Source: Clostridiales bacterium
Lineage (GTDB): Bacteria; Bacillota; Clostridia; Caldicoprobacterales; DTU083
Direction of reading: 5' to 3'
Assembly (NCBI GenBank): GCA_012839095.1
Contig: DUOA01000089.1
Location: 1-55,333, forward strand
Length of the DNA: 55,333 bases
How positions within the stretch are numbered: position 1 is the stretch's first letter; every line of letters starts with the position of its first letter. Positions 6,597 to 53,517 of this stretch are shown piece after piece. Made by a program: the position numbers and the translations under genes. Under the pieces are notes generated by a model. That model ran no database searches, was not told the origin of the DNA, and saw only the letters and a program-made list of their open reading frames with translations.

Positions 6597-6625
6597 TTGA
6601 CAAACCAAGTTGTTTTTGGTATAGT
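6597..6625 (+). promoter_or_regulatory. Promoter of the purine operon
   Basis: TTGACA (6597-6602), a 17-base spacer and TATAGT (6620-6625). Transcription would begin just before the riboswitch aptamer at about 6637. Confidence 0.85.
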
Positions 6626-6636
6626 ACTTATATAAA

Positions 6637-6710
6637 ATACTCATATAATCCTGATAATTGGTTTGGGAGTTTCTACTGGGCGGCCGTAAACTGCCTGACT
6701 ATGAGTGGAT
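6637..6710 (+). ncRNA. Purine (guanine-type) riboswitch aptamer
   Basis: The segment has the conserved purine-aptamer core: P1 arms ACTCATA (6639-6645) and TATGAGT (6700-6706), TATAATCCTGATAAT on the 5' side, GGTTTGGGAGTTTCTAC in the middle and CCGTAAACTGCC before the 3' junction. The specificity position in GACTATGAGT is C, which recognises guanine or hypoxanthine rather than adenine. It lies between the purine promoter and purE and should act with the terminator at 6811-6847. Confidence 0.92.
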
Positions 6711-6810
6711 ATTGCTGCTGTCTTAGTTTACCGGCACTGCTGCGGACCATGTTTTCGATGGTAATAGCCCGATCGCCGTAGTAGTGATTGGTTTTCTGTG
6801 TAAAAGAGAA

Positions 6811-17339: not shown

Positions 17340-17516
17340 CGAAAGCAGTTAGCACTCCATCAAATATTTGATGACAGTCAGTGAGTTATTCACCCAAAGA
17401 CCAGAAAACAGCGGGAGGGCCGCAGTTCCCTTCGGCGGCTTTTCCTTTCCTTCACCTTCATGGAACCCCTTCATTCTCCGGTGAAATACTGATAAAAGCC
17501 GCGCCTCTAAACTACC
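17340..17516 (-). ncRNA. Lysine riboswitch (L box)
   Basis: Read on the minus strand, the segment starts GTAGTTTAGAGGCGCGGC, continues with ATCAGTAT, GAAGGGG, AAAGCCGCCGAAGGGAACTGC and CTGGTCTTTGGGTGAATAA, and ends GGAGTGCTAACTGC. These match the conserved lysine aptamer in order, and P1 can form between GTAGTT and AACTGC. It stands between a strong promoter and the asd gene, with a terminator behind it, so lysine should shut off asd-dapA-dapB. Confidence 0.93.
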
Positions 17517-17534
17517 TAATCCATATTTTTTTCC

Positions 17535-43139: not shown

Positions 43140-43397
43140 ATATTCAGGCAATGAGAAAGAGGAGTACACGCCAGGCGTCCAACAGAGAAGGAAGCCCACC
43201 GGCTGAAAGGCGTCCCGGGAGACAGCAGCGTGGAAGGTCGCTTTCGAGCCTTGCTGTCGAAGATTAATTTTGGTAGGCAGCAACGGATGCTCCCGTTACA
43301 GAGCCCCGAGAGTCAATCTGCCTTTATACTGAATGGCATTTTGGAACAAAGGTGGTACCGCGAAGCAGTCTTCGTCCTTTTGGATGAAGGCTTTTTT
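43140..43397 (+). ncRNA. T-box leader of valS with its terminator
   Basis: The hallmark T-box sequence AAAGGTGGTACCGCG lies at 43348-43362. Upstream are an AGTA-containing stem I (GAGGAGTACACG near 43160), CAGAGAAGGAAGCC, and the stem III element CTCCCGTTACAGAGCC near 43289. The intrinsic terminator has GTCTTCGTCC (43368-43377) pairing with GGATGAAGGC (43382-43391), then TTTTTT. Uncharged tRNA should favour the antiterminator that uses GGTGGTACC. GTA at 43273-43275 is a possible valine specifier codon, but I could not place it with certainty in the specifier loop. Confidence 0.92.
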
Positions 43398-46126: not shown

Positions 46127-47446
46127 ATGACATACGAAGAAGCATTGCAATATATTCACGATACCGTTAAGTACGGCTCGAAGCTGGGGCTGCAGAATAT
46201 AACCGAGCTTTTACGGCGGCTGGGAAATCCACACCATGAATTTCCTGCGGTTCATATAGCCGGGACCAATGGGAAAGGCTCTGTGACTGCGATGACAGCC
46301 AGCATTCTTCATAAGGCGGGCTTAAGGACCGGGATGTTTATATCCCCTTACCTGGAAAGCTTCACAGAAAGGATACAGGTGAATTTTCAGCAGATTCCCG
46401 GTGAGCATCTGGCCCGGCTTACCAAGCGGGTAAAAGAGGAGGTCAGGGGAATGGTCCGGGATGGATTCAACCATCCCACAGAGTTTGAGATAGTTACCAC
46501 CCTGGGTTTTCTTTGGTTCGCAGAGCAAAAGGTGGATGTCGCTGTGGTAGAAGTAGGTCTGGGCGGCAGGCTGGATTCCACCAATGTAATACAGCCCCTG
46601 GTTTCCATCATTACTTCCATCAGCTATGATCATACCCGGGTGCTGGGCAGCACCCTTTCAGAGATTGCCTATGAAAAAGGCGGAATTATCAAAGTCGGAG
46701 TGCCGGTAGTATCCTACCCCCAGGCAGAAGAGGCAGAAAGGGTACTATCGGAGCTGGCACAGGAACGGGGTTCTTCTTATTACCCTGTTTCACCGGGGCA
46801 GATAATGGAAAGAAGTTCTTCTTTCAGTGAGCAGCGTTTTGACTTTACATGGAAGGAAGAGGTATTGGAGGATTTATCTATTTCACTGCCCGGTAAGCAC
46901 CAGCTCCTTAATGCAGCTTGTGCCCTGTCCGGCGCCATGATCATGAGAGAGTCGGGCTATGAGATTTCGGATGAGGCAATTTATGCCGGACTGAAGGAAG
47001 CCCGATGGCCCGGCCGGCTGGAAATGATTAAGGATCAGCCGGCTGTTCTGCTGGATGGCGCTCACAATCCTTCAGGTGCGCAGGCACTGGCCGATGCTGT
47101 CCGGCATTATTTTCCGGATAAGCGGGTTCATCTGATACTGGGCGTATTGGGGGATAAGGATGTGGAAACAGTGACCCGGATCCTGTGTTCTATAGCCGAC
47201 AGAATAACACTAACGGAGCCGGACAGTCACCGGGCAGCTCCGGCGGATGAATTGGCAGCCATAGCAGGAAAATACCATACGGACATTGATGTCTGTTCTG
47301 ATCTTGCACGAGCAATTGATAAAGCTATGGACTCGATACAGGCCGGCAGGGGGGACATGAGTGACAACTCAGATAAATGGATGCTGGTTATAAGTGGTTC
47401 CTTATATCTGGTCGGAGAGGCAAGAACAATCCTGCGCAGCAGGTAA
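46127..47446 (+). CDS. folC: Folylpolyglutamate synthase / dihydrofolate synthase
   Basis: FolC adds glutamates to folates, and in many bacteria also makes dihydrofolate. The 439-residue Mur-ligase-like enzyme has the P-loop VHIAGTNGKGSVTAM near residue 42, HPTEFEIVTTLGFLWFAE near 118, VVEVGLGGRLDSTNV near 144, and LLDGAHNPSGAQAL near 307. ATG 46127 follows AAAGGAAG. It lies 36 bases after valS, so it shares the T-box-controlled transcript, and its transcript ends in a bidirectional terminator. Confidence 0.95.
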   Translation: MTYEEALQYIHDTVKYGSKLGLQNITELLRRLGNPHHEFPAVHIAGTNGKGSVTAMTASILHKAGLRTGMFISPYLESFTERIQVNFQQIPGEHLARLTKRVKEEVRGMVRDGFNHPTEFEIVTTLGFLWFAEQKVDVAVVEVGLGGRLDSTNVIQPLVSIITSISYDHTRVLGSTLSEIAYEKGGIIKVGVPVVSYPQAEEAERVLSELAQERGSSYYPVSPGQIMERSSSFSEQRFDFTWKEEVLEDLSISLPGKHQLLNAACALSGAMIMRESGYEISDEAIYAGLKEARWPGRLEMIKDQPAVLLDGAHNPSGAQALADAVRHYFPDKRVHLILGVLGDKDVETVTRILCSIADRITLTEPDSHRAAPADELAAIAGKYHTDIDVCSDLARAIDKAMDSIQAGRGDMSDNSDKWMLVISGSLYLVGEARTILRSR

Positions 47447-47487
47447 TAAAAAATGGAATCCTATATCAGGGATTCCATTATTTTTCT
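47447..47487. terminator. Bidirectional terminator between folC and DUF4364
   Basis: AATGGAATCC (47452-47461) pairs perfectly with GGATTCCATT (47470-47479). The plus side is followed by ATTTTTCT and the minus side by TTTTTTATTACC. The DUF4364 stop is inside the 3' part. Confidence 0.85.
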
Positions 47488-47976
47488 GTATACTTCAGGT
47501 GCCTTTGATTTCCAATTGGAACAGATGGTTTTTGCCTGTGTAATATTGATAACATTCACCTTAAGCTCCATTAAACTCATATCACCTTCCATAACACGCA
47601 GCACCACTTCATATTCCTGGTTGTTCAGCCGTTTGTAATCAGCCGTCAGTTGACTCTCGTTACGAAGACGATTCCGGTTCTCTTCAGCATAGCTTATTAT
47701 ATCCTGGCGGGACTTGGCATCGATTCGGGAATGAAAAAAATCCAATGCTTCCCAGCCCTTTTCAGTAAGGGTGTAGTAATTGCTCTGCCGGCCTTCCATA
47801 TAGGCAAGATGCCGGGATTCCACCAGTTCTACCAGCAATTGCTGGAGATCAAAGTAGTTCATCATAAATTTCTTAATGAAAAACTCTGTAATCTGCTCAT
47901 TGGTCAGGGGGATATTCAGAGTCTGGACAAAAAACAGTATGGACAACTTGTTGCCTGCCAGTTCGGCCATTCTCAT
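47461..47976 (-). CDS. DUF4364 winged-helix protein
   Basis: The 171-residue protein matches DUF4364, common in clostridia: LAGNKLSILFFVQTLNIPLTNEQITEFFI at the start, then a winged-helix segment with RHLAYMEGRQSNYYTLTEKGWEALDFF near residues 60-87, and a C-terminal RVMEGDMSLMELKVNV part. The winged helix resembles PadR-like DNA-binding domains, so a regulatory role is probable. Its targets are unknown. ATG 47976 is chosen, 7 bases after AGGTG; the longer frame begins at a TTG without a ribosome site. Confidence 0.8.
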   Translation of the reverse strand: MRMAELAGNKLSILFFVQTLNIPLTNEQITEFFIKKFMMNYFDLQQLLVELVESRHLAYMEGRQSNYYTLTEKGWEALDFFHSRIDAKSRQDIISYAEENRNRLRNESQLTADYKRLNNQEYEVVLRVMEGDMSLMELKVNVINITQAKTICSNWKSKAPEVYRKIMESLI

Positions 47977-48003
47977 TATTTTCACCTGCAATATTGTAAT
48001 AGT

Positions 48004-48074: not shown

Positions 48075-48103
48075 TTGACTTTTGCCTATTGCGGTGGTAA
48101 GCT
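48075..48103 (+). promoter_or_regulatory. Possible promoter of the ABC/DUF1854 leader
   Basis: TTGACT (48075-48080), 17-base spacer and TAAGCT (48098-48103). The -10 is poor. If used, the leader would include both GAGTGCTTGT repeats. Confidence 0.25.
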
Positions 48104-48215
48104 AATTTTTGTAATGTTTATCTTACATAAAAGATGATAAGTGGAGTGCTTGTTGTGATCTTATGCGGTTTTGATAATGGTTACCATAACATGATTCAAT
48201 ATATGTTTTATTAAT

Positions 48216-48342
48216 GGCAGCGAGTGCTTGTAAGACTGAGTTATGCCCTGCACTTGTTTGCCGGGGATAACCACGCTTATGTCTAAGGATTTGGCAGCAG
48301 AGTCTGTACCGGCGGCAGGGTGATTAATCCCGCCGTTTTTTT
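48216..48342 (+). ncRNA. Structured leader with intrinsic terminator, riboswitch or attenuator candidate
   Basis: Between DUF4364 and the first exporter gene there is a hairpin with GGCA (48216-48219) pairing with TGCC (48259-48262) and AGTGC (48223-48227) pairing with GCACT (48250-48254). A strong terminator follows: CGGCGG (48310-48315) plus G pairs with CCCGCCG, then TTTTTTT (48336-48342). TGCCG (48259-48263) can instead pair with CGGCA (48313-48317), which breaks the terminator. AGACT (48233-48237) can also pair with AGTCT (48301-48305). No class known to me matches. The terminator lies 35 bases before the gene, so transcription attenuation of the exporter operon is the likely role. Confidence 0.6.
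48310..48342 (+). terminator. Attenuator terminator before the exporter operon
   Basis: A GC-rich stem of at least seven pairs with a CA bulge, loop around TGATTAA, then seven T. It is within the leader of the operon it precedes, not after a gene. Confidence 0.8.
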
Positions 48343-48376
48343 GTGCAGATATCCGGCAGCAGAAGGAGATTACAGA

Positions 48377-50680
48377 ATGAGTTTTTGCTGCCCGATCCGC
48401 TTTGAGGGGGAAACAAGGATGAAGACATACATTCCGGAATATATGCTATCTGCTTTTGCTGCTCAGGGGATTGACGTTTCCGGGCTTGTTTATGCAATAC
48501 ATGCAGATGCTGTAGATAAAAGCGAATATATGGATGTTTATATTGCTGTCAGCAGTGATACAATGTACATTCTCTATGGATTGGAGAAAGTTGTTAAGAC
48601 TTCCGGAGCCCGCCGTATAGTTGCCGTATACGAGGCTGAGAAACTGGAAACCCGGCCTTTTTCCGAACTGGGGGAGCTTAAGAGTGAGCTTCTTTTGTCA
48701 ACAGGCCGCCTGTGCAGCGAAAAGGATGGCGCTTCGAAAATACTACTGGTGTTTTCAATCGGATTTCTGGCAGATGTGGAACGGCTGCTTAAGGTGATAA
48801 AGAATATACGTAAGGGAGTTCCGGCCCTTGAAGATATCATTGTGGATGATGAGCTCTTTTGTCATAAATGCGGCACCAGATATCCGGAACCGGAACGCAA
48901 GCTGTGCCCGAAGTGCATGGACAAAATCTCAATCACCAGGCGCTTAATGGGTTTCTTTGCAGATTACCGAAGTAAAGTTATTGTTATTTTCCTGACCATG
49001 CTTGCCGGTTCTCTGTTTTCCGTCTTTTCTCCGCTGGTAGGTTCAAAGTTCTTTTTCGACGAGGTGCTTACTGAAGGCGGAAGCTATTATGGTGCTATTT
49101 TGGCAGCCATATTGCTGATATTTGCAGTAAGGGCTGTTGGTGTCGCCCTGAACATTCTCTACTCCTACGTACTGGCAAAGACAGTTCCATGGATTGTTCA
49201 GGATTTGAAGCTTAAAATCTTTGAGGCAATGCAGCGGCTGTCCGTAGGATTCTATACCTCCAAGCGCACCGGCTCCCTGATGAACAGAGTAAATCGTGAT
49301 GCCAACAACATTTACTGGTTCTTTGTTGACGGTCTGCCGTATGTTGTAGTAAACCTGTTCACCTTTACCGGTATCATCACTTTAATGTGCATGCTGAGCT
49401 TTAAGCTTGCTTTGATATGTATAATAATACTTCCCGTTGCCATAGGTTTTTTCAGGATGCTTTGGAGCATTTTCAGGCGTTTTCATCATAGGAATTGGGT
49501 ATACAGCTCTCAGCTGAACTCCATGGTAAGCGACTCTGTCAATGGACAGCGCGTCATTAAGGCATTTGCAAGAGAAGACACTGAGGCAGTGCGTTTTGCA
49601 GAGATAGGAGGCAAGCAGGCTGCAGTTGATATAGGCGCTTTCAACATCGGATACACAGCCTTTCCTCTTATTTATCTGTTTATGTTTTTCGGTCAGGTAG
49701 TTGTTACGGCTTTGGGCGGCAATATGGTCCTCAAGGGCGAAATATCCCTGGGAACTCTGCTGACCTTCATTGCCTACCTGTCTATGCTGTATGGGCCGCT
49801 GGAATTTATGTCGTGGGTTTCCAACTGGTGGGCCCGCTGTGTGGATTCAGCCCAGCGAGTTTTTGAAATCATTGACGCCAAGCCTGATGTCACCGAACCG
49901 GATGATCCCGTTATTCTGGATCGAATAAGAGGCGATATCGAGCTTAAGGATGTGAAATTTGAATACGATCCAGCAACTCCTGTGTTAAAAGGGCTTAACC
50001 TTTCTGTGAAAGCAGGTGAGATGCTGGGTATAGTAGGCAAGACCGGAGCAGGTAAATCCACAATGGCAAACCTTATAGCCCGTCTTTATGATGTGACGGA
50101 AGGTACCATTACTATCGATGGAATTAATGTCAGGCAATTATCGCTTACTCAGCTGCGGCAAAGTATCGGTATCGTATCTCAGGATATATATCTTTTTATT
50201 GGTACGATTGCTGACAATATCCGATATGCAAGGCCGAATGCCACCATGGAAGAAGTCATCCGGGCGGCAAAGGCTGCTTCAGCTCATGATTTTATTATGA
50301 ATCTGCCGGATGCCTATGAAACAAGAGTAGGTGCAGGCGGCCAGGACCTTTCCGGAGGGGAAAAACAGCGTTTGTCCATCGCCCGCACGATTCTGCAGGA
50401 TCCGGATATTCTGATTCTGGATGAGGCTACGGCTGCCATGGACACAGAGACGGAAGCCAATATACAAAAGGCACTCTTCGAACTGCAGAAGGGGCGCACT
50501 ACCATAGCAATTGCTCACAGGCTTTCCACCTTGCGGGATGCGGACAGCCTTGCCGTAATAAGTGACGGCAGAGTGGTGGAAAGCGGTACTCACAGAGAAT
50601 TAATGCTCCGGAAAGGAGAGTACTACAAGCTTTATAAGATTCAGCTGGAAGGTCTCAAGGTAATTAACATGGAAGGCTGA
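48377..50680 (+). CDS. ABC exporter half-transporter with N-terminal zinc ribbon (DUF1854-associated)
   Basis: The 767-residue protein has an unusual N-terminal domain of about 160 residues, then a CxxC-x11-CxxC zinc ribbon near 162-180, a six-helix exporter membrane domain (about 190-480), and an ATPase with Walker A GKTGAGKST near 552, signature LSGGEKQR near 657, Walker B ILILDEA and the IAHRLST switch. The layout fits exporters annotated with DUF1854 proteins, in some bacteria near cyanophycin genes. ATG 48377 has AAGGAG 8 bases upstream; ATG 48420 is the alternative. It likely pairs with the 711-residue exporter downstream. Confidence 0.85.
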   Translation: MSFCCPIRFEGETRMKTYIPEYMLSAFAAQGIDVSGLVYAIHADAVDKSEYMDVYIAVSSDTMYILYGLEKVVKTSGARRIVAVYEAEKLETRPFSELGELKSELLLSTGRLCSEKDGASKILLVFSIGFLADVERLLKVIKNIRKGVPALEDIIVDDELFCHKCGTRYPEPERKLCPKCMDKISITRRLMGFFADYRSKVIVIFLTMLAGSLFSVFSPLVGSKFFFDEVLTEGGSYYGAILAAILLIFAVRAVGVALNILYSYVLAKTVPWIVQDLKLKIFEAMQRLSVGFYTSKRTGSLMNRVNRDANNIYWFFVDGLPYVVVNLFTFTGIITLMCMLSFKLALICIIILPVAIGFFRMLWSIFRRFHHRNWVYSSQLNSMVSDSVNGQRVIKAFAREDTEAVRFAEIGGKQAAVDIGAFNIGYTAFPLIYLFMFFGQVVVTALGGNMVLKGEISLGTLLTFIAYLSMLYGPLEFMSWVSNWWARCVDSAQRVFEIIDAKPDVTEPDDPVILDRIRGDIELKDVKFEYDPATPVLKGLNLSVKAGEMLGIVGKTGAGKSTMANLIARLYDVTEGTITIDGINVRQLSLTQLRQSIGIVSQDIYLFIGTIADNIRYARPNATMEEVIRAAKAASAHDFIMNLPDAYETRVGAGGQDLSGGEKQRLSIARTILQDPDILILDEATAAMDTETEANIQKALFELQKGRTTIAIAHRLSTLRDADSLAVISDGRVVESGTHRELMLRKGEYYKLYKIQLEGLKVINMEG

Positions 50681-50782: not shown

Positions 50783-51328
50783 ATGGAAACCGCAAGAAAG
50801 GTATCGGAATCTTCGCTGACCCTTGCGATAGATATTGGAATACTTGATCTGAAAAAGGCCGAGTTTTACGAAACACCAGGTGGATTTACAGGTTTAAGAT
50901 ATGAAGGAAAGGATTATGATCGTATTATACTAAGACGGGCTCTTCCTATTGGGCATCCCATGGAATATATATCAGTGGCGGACAAGGACAACAAGGAAAT
51001 CGGGATAATCCGTTCTCTGGCTGAACTCAGTGAAGAGCAGTATGCTATTGTGGCTGCTGAGCTGGAAAGCCGATATTACAGCCCCACTGTCCATGAGATA
51101 AAATCGGTAAAGGATAAACTGGGCTACGTTTATATGGAGCTTGTCATCGGAAGGGATGGCGCAAAATATGCAAAGAATTGTGCCGTCAAGGACGTCAGCA
51201 GGAATATAAGGATGCTGGATGATGACAGGCTGGCTATATTCGATGTGGATGGCAACCGATATATCATTCAGTCATTGTCCGGACTGGACAAGAAGAGCCT
51301 GAAGAGACTGGAACCATACCTTTTCTAG
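50783..51328 (+). CDS. DUF1854 protein
   Basis: The 181-residue soluble protein matches DUF1854. Recognisable are the first half ALPIGHPMEYISVADKDNKEIGIIRSL near residue 53, LSEEQYAIVAAELESRYYSP near 81 and the C-terminal RNIRMLDDDRLAIFDVDGNRY. The function is unknown. The family occurs with a dedicated ABC exporter pair, sometimes beside cyanophycin synthesis genes, though none are seen here. GGGGG precedes ATG 50783. It lies between two exporter genes with gaps of 102 and 53 bases. Confidence 0.8.
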   Translation: METARKVSESSLTLAIDIGILDLKKAEFYETPGGFTGLRYEGKDYDRIILRRALPIGHPMEYISVADKDNKEIGIIRSLAELSEEQYAIVAAELESRYYSPTVHEIKSVKDKLGYVYMELVIGRDGAKYAKNCAVKDVSRNIRMLDDDRLAIFDVDGNRYIIQSLSGLDKKSLKRLEPYLF

Positions 51329-51381: not shown

Positions 51382-53517
51382 ATGAATACACATAAGTTTT
51401 ATTATGACCTTGATCTGACTATGAAGCCTGTCGATGGTGTTCTGACTTTTGATGAAAGGGGGCAGATCTGCTCCCGCATCGGCGGCAATGAACTCTTATC
51501 CATCTCAGCTGAAAACATAAATGAAGTTGCTGTTTTACCGGGAGTAGGCTGCGGTCTTTTGTTATCGAAAATGAAGGATGGCAGTGAAATTCTGCTTTGC
51601 AGGTTTACCATGTCGTACATGAGGGCAGCCGGAGAGTTCAGCAAGGTCGTCAACTTCTATGTACAGACAAAGCAATATGCGGCTCCGGATGAAGAAGAAA
51701 GACCGGTTTGCGAGAAGTGCAGCCGTCCTCTTGTGGAAGGCATGTCGGTTTGTATTTTCTGCTACAACAGAATCGGCGTGCTGAAGCGAGCGCTTCAGTT
51801 AATGCGCCCATTTGCCGGTAAAATCATACCTGCAGAACTGTTTATGACTGTGTCCTCAGTCTTGTATCTTCTGGTGCCCTTGTTCAGCAGAATTATCATA
51901 GATGAGCATCTGCGGCCTATGAAGGGGACTTTTCAGCAGCTTCTGTTGCTGGCCGGGGCCATGTTTTTGGCCAGGGCCCTGGGAGAGGTGATCTTCATCT
52001 TAAGCTCCAGAGTATTTAATGAGGCCAGCATCCAATACGCCAATCATTTAAGAAATCTGGCTTATGAAAAGATACAGAAACTGTCACTGGGATCCCTTTC
52101 CAAGCGGACACCGGGTGATTTGATCCGGCGGGTAATGGAAGATACAACAACCGTGAAGGAGTTTATATCGGACGGAGGCCGCTGGGCCGTGGAGCAGACA
52201 ATTATCTTTCTGGTGGTTTTTATTATCCTCCTCTTAACGAATTACAAGCTCACCTTGTTGGTATTTCTGCCTGTACCCGTGGTAAGTATTGCCTTATCCC
52301 GTTTCTGGAGATTCATCCATATACGCTATGAGCGGCAATGGCGCAAAAACTCCAAGTGTCAGGGAATCCTTCATGATATCATCAAGGGTATCCGTACCGT
52401 CAAATCCTTTGGCAAAGAGGATATGGAAATAGAAAAGTTTGCGAAAGCCACAAGGGAACTGGCTGAAGTATCATCAGACAATGAAACCCTATGGGCCCGC
52501 CTCTTTCCTTCGCTGACCTTCTTTACCGGCATCGGCGAGTTTCTGGTATTGTATTACGGAGGATACAGAATCCTTGACGGAACCCTTAGTTTTGGTGTGC
52601 TTGTTCAGTTTACCATGTATATTACCTATATTTATGCTCCTTTGCGCTGGTTTGTTTCCTTTCCGCGCTGGCTGGCCGATGCCATGACCAGCATGGTCAA
52701 GATATTTGAGATACTGGATGAAGAGCCGGATATCAAATCCATACCGGAGCCAAAAAATGTACCCCTTGCCGGAAAGATTGCCTTTGAGGGGGTTACCTTC
52801 GGGTATAAGTCATATGAACCCGTACTGAGAGACATCAACCTGGAGATAAAACCGGGTGAAATGATTGGCATAGTAGGGCGTTCCGGTGCAGGAAAGTCTA
52901 CCATGATCAACCTGTTGATGCGGCTTTATGATCCGGTTCAGGGCAGGATACGCATTAATGGAATTGATATCAGGGACATGTCTCCTGAATACCTGCATGA
53001 AAATATCGGCGTAGTCTTTCAGGATACATTTCTGTTTGCAGGAACTATTTATGATAACATTGCCTACGGCAAGCCCGGCGCCACGCCCGCTGAGGTAATT
53101 GCCGCCGCAAAGGCCGCAAATGCCCATGATTTTATAATGCAGACTGCCGACGGCTACAACACCATTATAGGAGAGAGTGGTCATTCCATATCCGGGGGCG
53201 AACGCCAGCGGCTGGCTATTGCCCGGGCAATTATAAAAAATCCTTCCATACTGATATTGGATGAGGCTACCAGTTCCCTGGATGTTGAAACGGAGTCGAT
53301 CATTCAGGACAGCTTGAATCGCATAGTACAGGGCCGTACAACCATAGCCATTGCTCACAGGCTCTCCACCCTGAAAAATGCTGATCGACTTATAGTTCTG
53401 GAGAATGGCAGAATTGCAGAGTCAGGCACTCATGTGGAGCTGCTTAAAAAGAGGGGAATCTATTACCGGCTGGTCATGGCACAGCGGCAGACCAGCAGGC
53501 TGGCAGAAAGCGGTTAA
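51382..53517 (+). CDS. Second ABC exporter half-transporter with zinc ribbon
   Basis: The 711-residue protein repeats the architecture of the first exporter: an N-terminal beta-rich domain of about 105 residues, a CxxC-x10-CxxC zinc ribbon near 110-127, six membrane helices (about 145-430), and an ATPase with Walker A GRSGAGKST near 497, signature ISGGERQR near 605, Walker B ILILDEATSSLD and IAHRLST. Both ATP sites look complete, unlike many heterodimeric exporters. AGAAAGG precedes ATG 51382. The 3' end of the gene forms the 5' arm of its own terminator. Confidence 0.85.
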   Translation: MNTHKFYYDLDLTMKPVDGVLTFDERGQICSRIGGNELLSISAENINEVAVLPGVGCGLLLSKMKDGSEILLCRFTMSYMRAAGEFSKVVNFYVQTKQYAAPDEEERPVCEKCSRPLVEGMSVCIFCYNRIGVLKRALQLMRPFAGKIIPAELFMTVSSVLYLLVPLFSRIIIDEHLRPMKGTFQQLLLLAGAMFLARALGEVIFILSSRVFNEASIQYANHLRNLAYEKIQKLSLGSLSKRTPGDLIRRVMEDTTTVKEFISDGGRWAVEQTIIFLVVFIILLLTNYKLTLLVFLPVPVVSIALSRFWRFIHIRYERQWRKNSKCQGILHDIIKGIRTVKSFGKEDMEIEKFAKATRELAEVSSDNETLWARLFPSLTFFTGIGEFLVLYYGGYRILDGTLSFGVLVQFTMYITYIYAPLRWFVSFPRWLADAMTSMVKIFEILDEEPDIKSIPEPKNVPLAGKIAFEGVTFGYKSYEPVLRDINLEIKPGEMIGIVGRSGAGKSTMINLLMRLYDPVQGRIRINGIDIRDMSPEYLHENIGVVFQDTFLFAGTIYDNIAYGKPGATPAEVIAAAKAANAHDFIMQTADGYNTIIGESGHSISGGERQRLAIARAIIKNPSILILDEATSSLDVETESIIQDSLNRIVQGRTTIAIAHRLSTLKNADRLIVLENGRIAESGTHVELLKKRGIYYRLVMAQRQTSRLAESG

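Follow-up and report, generated by a model that had tools for sequence, protein, structure and literature searches.

A Candidate Lineage-specific Transcription Attenuator ahead of a DUF1854/ABC Exporter Operon in a Clostridiales Bacterium

The Exporter Operon and Its Leader

The window, the whole stretch of 55,333 nucleotides analyzed here, contains an operon in which two ABC exporter half-transporters are encoded either side of a DUF1854 protein, and the question that it raises is whether the RNA ahead of the first exporter gene controls the operon and, if so, whether it is a ligand-sensing RNA, as the original prediction suggested. The evidence given below indicates that the leader is probably a lineage-specific transcription attenuator of this heterodimeric ABC exporter/DUF1854 operon and of a known kind. 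The coordinates of its parts are collected in Table 1. The operon proteins match the NCBIfam "cyanophycin metabolism-associated" models at scores well below the cut-offs, and no paper on DUF1854 was found in the literature searched. ATG 48419 (MKTYIPEYML), and not ATG 48377, is the probable start of the first exporter gene: in alignments, the orthologues begin at Met15 of the listed frame, which is ATG 48419, the sequence GAGGGGG lies just before it, and this start position matches that of nearly all the relatives read. The distance of 35 bases from terminator to gene that had been proposed holds for ATG 48377 but not for the likelier start, with which the leader may extend 76 nt past the terminator.

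The leader was compared with those of 37 orthologous loci, 26 of which had enough upstream DNA for a leader to be read, and the family was sampled by 13 genomes. A homologous promoter and end hairpin were found in only two relatives, L001 and L002, the second of which belongs to G004. The promoter is kept in both (z 5.1 in L001 and 7.0 in L002) with identical spacing, and its absence from the list produced by a generic promoter scan is attributable to its weak −10 element. Together with the terminator, it defines a 5′ leader of ∼230 nt. A transcript start is proposed near 48110, and the placement of the leader start at 48216 was not sustained, since the promoter lies at 48075–48103. The upstream part of the leader, in which GAGTGCTTGTTGT pairs with GCAGCGAGTGCTT in a long predicted hairpin, resembles that of L001 only (z 4.3, as compared with 2.6 for L002). 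The predicted fold energy is unremarkable for both 48180–48360 (z −1.66) and the whole leader (z −1.14); the case for an attenuator therefore rests on the terminator and a specific competing helix and not on the amount of structure. A divergent DUF4364 gene (47461–47991, minus strand) adjoins the exporter promoter and is a candidate regulator, and a similar divergent gene appears to lie at the equivalent place in L002.

TABLE 1. Positions of the leader elements, the operon genes, and the sister-clade leader RNA
Feature	Position	Strand	Basis or match
Promoter: TTGACT (48075–48080), 17-nt spacer, extended −10 TGG-TAAGCT (48098–48103)	48075–48103	+	Sequence
Upstream leader with long predicted hairpin	48110–48229	+	Leader comparison, folds
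Candidate leader ORF, GTG to TAA	48155–48214		
Candidate leader ORF, ATG to TAA, overlapping the first and ending inside the switch hairpin	48214–48270		
Predicted anti-antiterminator hairpin (GTAAG..GTTAT.CCC / GGG.ATAAC..CTTAT)	48230–48280	+	MFE folds; sequence unconserved
Antiterminator 5′ strand: GCCCTGC (48245–48251), 7-nt bulge, TGCCGG (48259–48264)	48245–48264	+	Duplex energy, pair list, forced folds
Antiterminator 3′ strand, CCGGCGGCAGGGT	48309–48321	+	Duplex energy, forced folds
Intrinsic terminator: hairpin 48311–48337 and U7 tract 48336–48342	48311–48342	+	Shuffle test, conservation
ABC exporter half 1 (TM and NBD, zinc-ribbon-like CxxC pairs)	48377–50680	+	
DUF1854 protein	50783–51328	+	PF08909, E 8.7e-32
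ABC exporter half 2	51382–53517	+	
Sister-clade leader RNA (model R1)	L003:2380–2574, L005:2344–2542, L007:2363–2547, L034:2422–2611	+	

Terminator, Competing Folds, and Their Conservation

An intrinsic terminator is present between the promoter and the first gene, as had been predicted. Its hairpin has an energy of −13.7 kcal/mol, a value reached by none of 300 dinucleotide shuffles, and the end hairpin is kept in L001 (z 7.8) and L002 (z 7.5). That of L001 is strong with a poor U-tract, and that of L002 retains U7 behind a weak hairpin (−7.7 kcal/mol). A consensus terminator scanner did not list 48311–48342, probably because of an internal mismatch in the stem. Nothing upstream on the plus strand requires termination at this site (the end of folC is at 47446, and the next upstream gene is divergent), and no promoter is apparent in the interval between the terminator and the gene. 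The operon must therefore be transcribed through the terminator, which makes control of readthrough the natural reading of this arrangement.

The motifs on which the original prediction had based its switch are present at the positions that it gave (TGCCG at 48259–48263, CGGCA at 48313–48317, AGACT at 48233–48237, and AGTCT at 48301–48305), and two mutually exclusive folds are indeed predicted, but not through the pairing that it proposed. The TGCCG:CGGCA pair was rejected because its ensemble probability does not exceed 0.003 at any transcript length tested; moreover, 57% of shuffles contain a 5-nt stretch complementary to the terminator arm. The proposed long-range pair of AGACT with AGTCT reaches a probability of at most 0.19. 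A better antiterminator is a 13-bp helix with a 3′ strand that takes in nearly the whole 5′ arm of the terminator. Its duplex energy is −23.2 kcal/mol, as compared with −17.1 ± 2.5 kcal/mol in shuffles, 1.2–1.4% of which are as good (p 0.012–0.014), and the forced-fold energies also support its pairing with the terminator arm as a mutually exclusive alternative to the terminator. It also competes with the hairpin 48230–48280. In forced folds of transcripts ending at 48321–48324, the antiterminator equals or slightly betters the hairpin 48230–48280 and is the minimum free energy structure (−52.5 versus −51.7 kcal/mol), whereas at 48337 the hairpin and terminator together give −62.5 kcal/mol versus −54.8 kcal/mol for the antiterminator, a gap of 7.7 kcal/mol. 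These energies predict a short decision window and, for the full-length transcript, a default of hairpin plus terminator, that is, the OFF state. The alternative pairing is, like the terminator and the promoter homology, a computed result, and the terminator and competing fold support the proposal of an attenuator ahead of the exporter operon.

The middle of the leader, where a sensor would be expected, is not conserved: the similarity of 48229–48300 to the two homologous leaders does not exceed chance (z 1.0 and 0.4). Covariation across orthologous leaders had been suggested as a check, and for this region its absence is largely what was found, within a set of three homologous leaders. L001 has no upstream antiterminator (p 0.63–0.86 versus shuffles). 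The leader of L002, only ∼116 nt in total, may form an analogous helix of its own, GCCAAAC:GTTTGGC, that overlaps an arm of the end hairpin (p 0.10). Two members of the same family, L006 and L008, have short 5′ UTRs with no attenuator, and a DNA similarity search of 30 genomes of the order returned, besides the window itself, only short matches at chance level. Because the middle region is unconserved and L006 and L008 lack an attenuator, the element is likely to be of recent origin and to evolve fast, in contrast to the aptamer of a riboswitch.

Proposed Operation and Alternative Explanations

From the computed folds, we infer how the leader would operate in cells, the direction of control, and the kind of trigger. 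Transcription would begin near 48110, and by default the hairpin 48230–48280 in the nascent RNA would hide the 5′ strand of the antiterminator, so that the terminator forms and most transcripts stop there. If that hairpin were opened before the polymerase passes 48337, 48245–48264 would be free to pair with 48309–48321, blocking the terminator and allowing readthrough into the exporter genes. Candidates for the opening event are a paused or absent ribosome, a slow polymerase, or a protein; a small ligand is less likely. By analogy with BmrCD, the trigger is most likely a stress or translation-linked event. Should the attenuator work as predicted, the exporter would be off by default, and the signal that releases it would point to its substrate.

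Terminator-based leader attenuators are found ahead of the exporters PatAB and BmrCD (PMC4319486, PMC4191407). The patAB leader of Streptococcus pneumoniae also precedes an ABC exporter gene pair and has a predicted terminator, antiterminator, and anti-antiterminator just before the first gene (PMC4319486). It differs in that its terminator was tested by mutation, whereas the attenuator in the window is predicted by computation, and in that the operon in the window also carries DUF1854; no sequence homology is claimed. Mutation of the patAB terminator alone increases expression, and an inducer acting through the RNA was not demonstrated (PMC4319486). This precedent favors a plainer explanation of the window leader, a housekeeping brake in which the terminator serves only to reduce basal expression and the alternative fold is fortuitous, as does the conservation of the end hairpin and not of the switch region. 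The antiterminator nevertheless exceeds chance (p 0.013) and has a counterpart in L002, and we consider a simple brake rather unlikely.

The bmrB-bmrC-bmrD leader of Bacillus subtilis likewise precedes a heterodimeric ABC exporter and forms alternative stem-loops that include an intrinsic terminator, but it requires a translated leader peptide, BmrB (PMC4191407), whereas no convincing leader ORF was found in the window. Ribosome-mediated attenuation of this type, in which a short ORF senses translation stress, would have two candidate ORFs. The first has a predicted Shine-Dalgarno energy of −5.9 kcal/mol and a stop position in common with a 19-codon ORF in L001, and the second spans the antiterminator strand. 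However, ORFs of such length and modest Shine-Dalgarno strength occur in ∼25–28% of shuffles, so that the candidates are no better than chance; ATG 48214 has no Shine-Dalgarno sequence, and indels break the frames relative to L001 and L002. Control by a leader peptide is unlikely on this evidence, but it overlaps the attenuator explanation, of which it is one possible trigger and not an exclusive alternative.

The leader upstream of 48300 might instead bind a small molecule, perhaps the exporter substrate, and so control the terminator as an undescribed class of riboswitch. The absence of a match to a described class was confirmed: no Rfam model matched at its gathering score, none credibly to E = 10, and the same search recovered the other riboswitches and the T-box leader of the window. 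These standard classes are a lysine riboswitch (17342–17517, minus strand), a purine riboswitch (6621–6721, plus strand), and a T-box leader before valS (43142–43382, plus strand). The T-box leader (RF00230) shares with the attenuator an antiterminator/terminator switch and a bulge of 7 nt in the 5′ strand of the antiterminator, but the bulge in the window is ACUUGUU and not UGGN, and no Rfam T-box match is found at the attenuator. A T-box or FMN-like resemblance of GCAGGGTGA..CCCGCC was rejected, as the covariance models gave it no support. The lack of an Rfam match, the mutually exclusive folds, and the exporter operon downstream are all compatible with a riboswitch. A leader normally shows its highest conservation in the aptamer, however, and here 48229–48300 is the least conserved part, some similarity being seen only at 48113–48228 and to one relative. 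The shortness of the L002 leader, the single copy found when a second was sought in the genome, the missing antiterminator of L001, and the missing attenuators of L006 and L008 also argue against a ligand-sensing RNA. We regard a new riboswitch class as very improbable. Because the would-be sensor is unconserved even in close relatives, an ordinary lineage-specific attenuator is the most likely explanation.

LoaP, a processive antiterminator, acts on leader RNA hairpins, but its involvement here is largely refuted and has a negligible probability, because the genome (96% complete) has no LoaP gene, its single NusG-like match scoring 81.7 bits against a LoaP cut-off of 125 and the same model giving sub-cut-off matches in 13 of 14 control genomes.

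Leaders of Orthologous Operons in Other Relatives

In a further small clade, the orthologous exporter operon is preceded by an unrelated, conserved, structured leader RNA of ∼196 nt. Its invariant stretches are (i) UAYGAA in a hairpin loop, (ii) GAUG-UUAAAUAG, and (iii) GAGGUAG...AGCGAA...AG-G-UA, and a long-range helix is formed by UACCYUUU and GAGGUAG. It has no Rfam match. The model built from it, R1, finds one copy per genome in four of the five genomes of that class and, under the stricter filters of the large search, no match in a further 394 genomes of the phylum. Homology to the attenuator leader was rejected, since R1 matches neither the window nor L001 or L002. Both RNAs precede orthologous operons as part of the 5′ leader, but the sister-clade RNA is strongly conserved in its own clade, whereas the leader in the window is not. 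Represented by four sequences, it is no more than a candidate, although a better riboswitch candidate than the leader in the window. That DUF1854/ABC exporter operons are repeatedly controlled by RNA across clostridial lineages, with at least one such RNA binding the exporter substrate as an undescribed riboswitch class, is a distinctly doubtful proposition. The presence of the sister-clade RNA before the same operon would make the question of the exporter substrate testable by ligand screening.

Six relatives from termite gut (L031, L028, L033, L032, L025, and L020) have a different feature in common, a promoter-proximal motif, TATAAAT-N3-CTTTTACCATTGC, with 17–20 of 20 positions matching. 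In the window, the motif is not found above chance. In the termite-gut relatives, the motif sits ∼85–145 nt before the first exporter gene and has the look of an operator or of a −35 region of a special kind.
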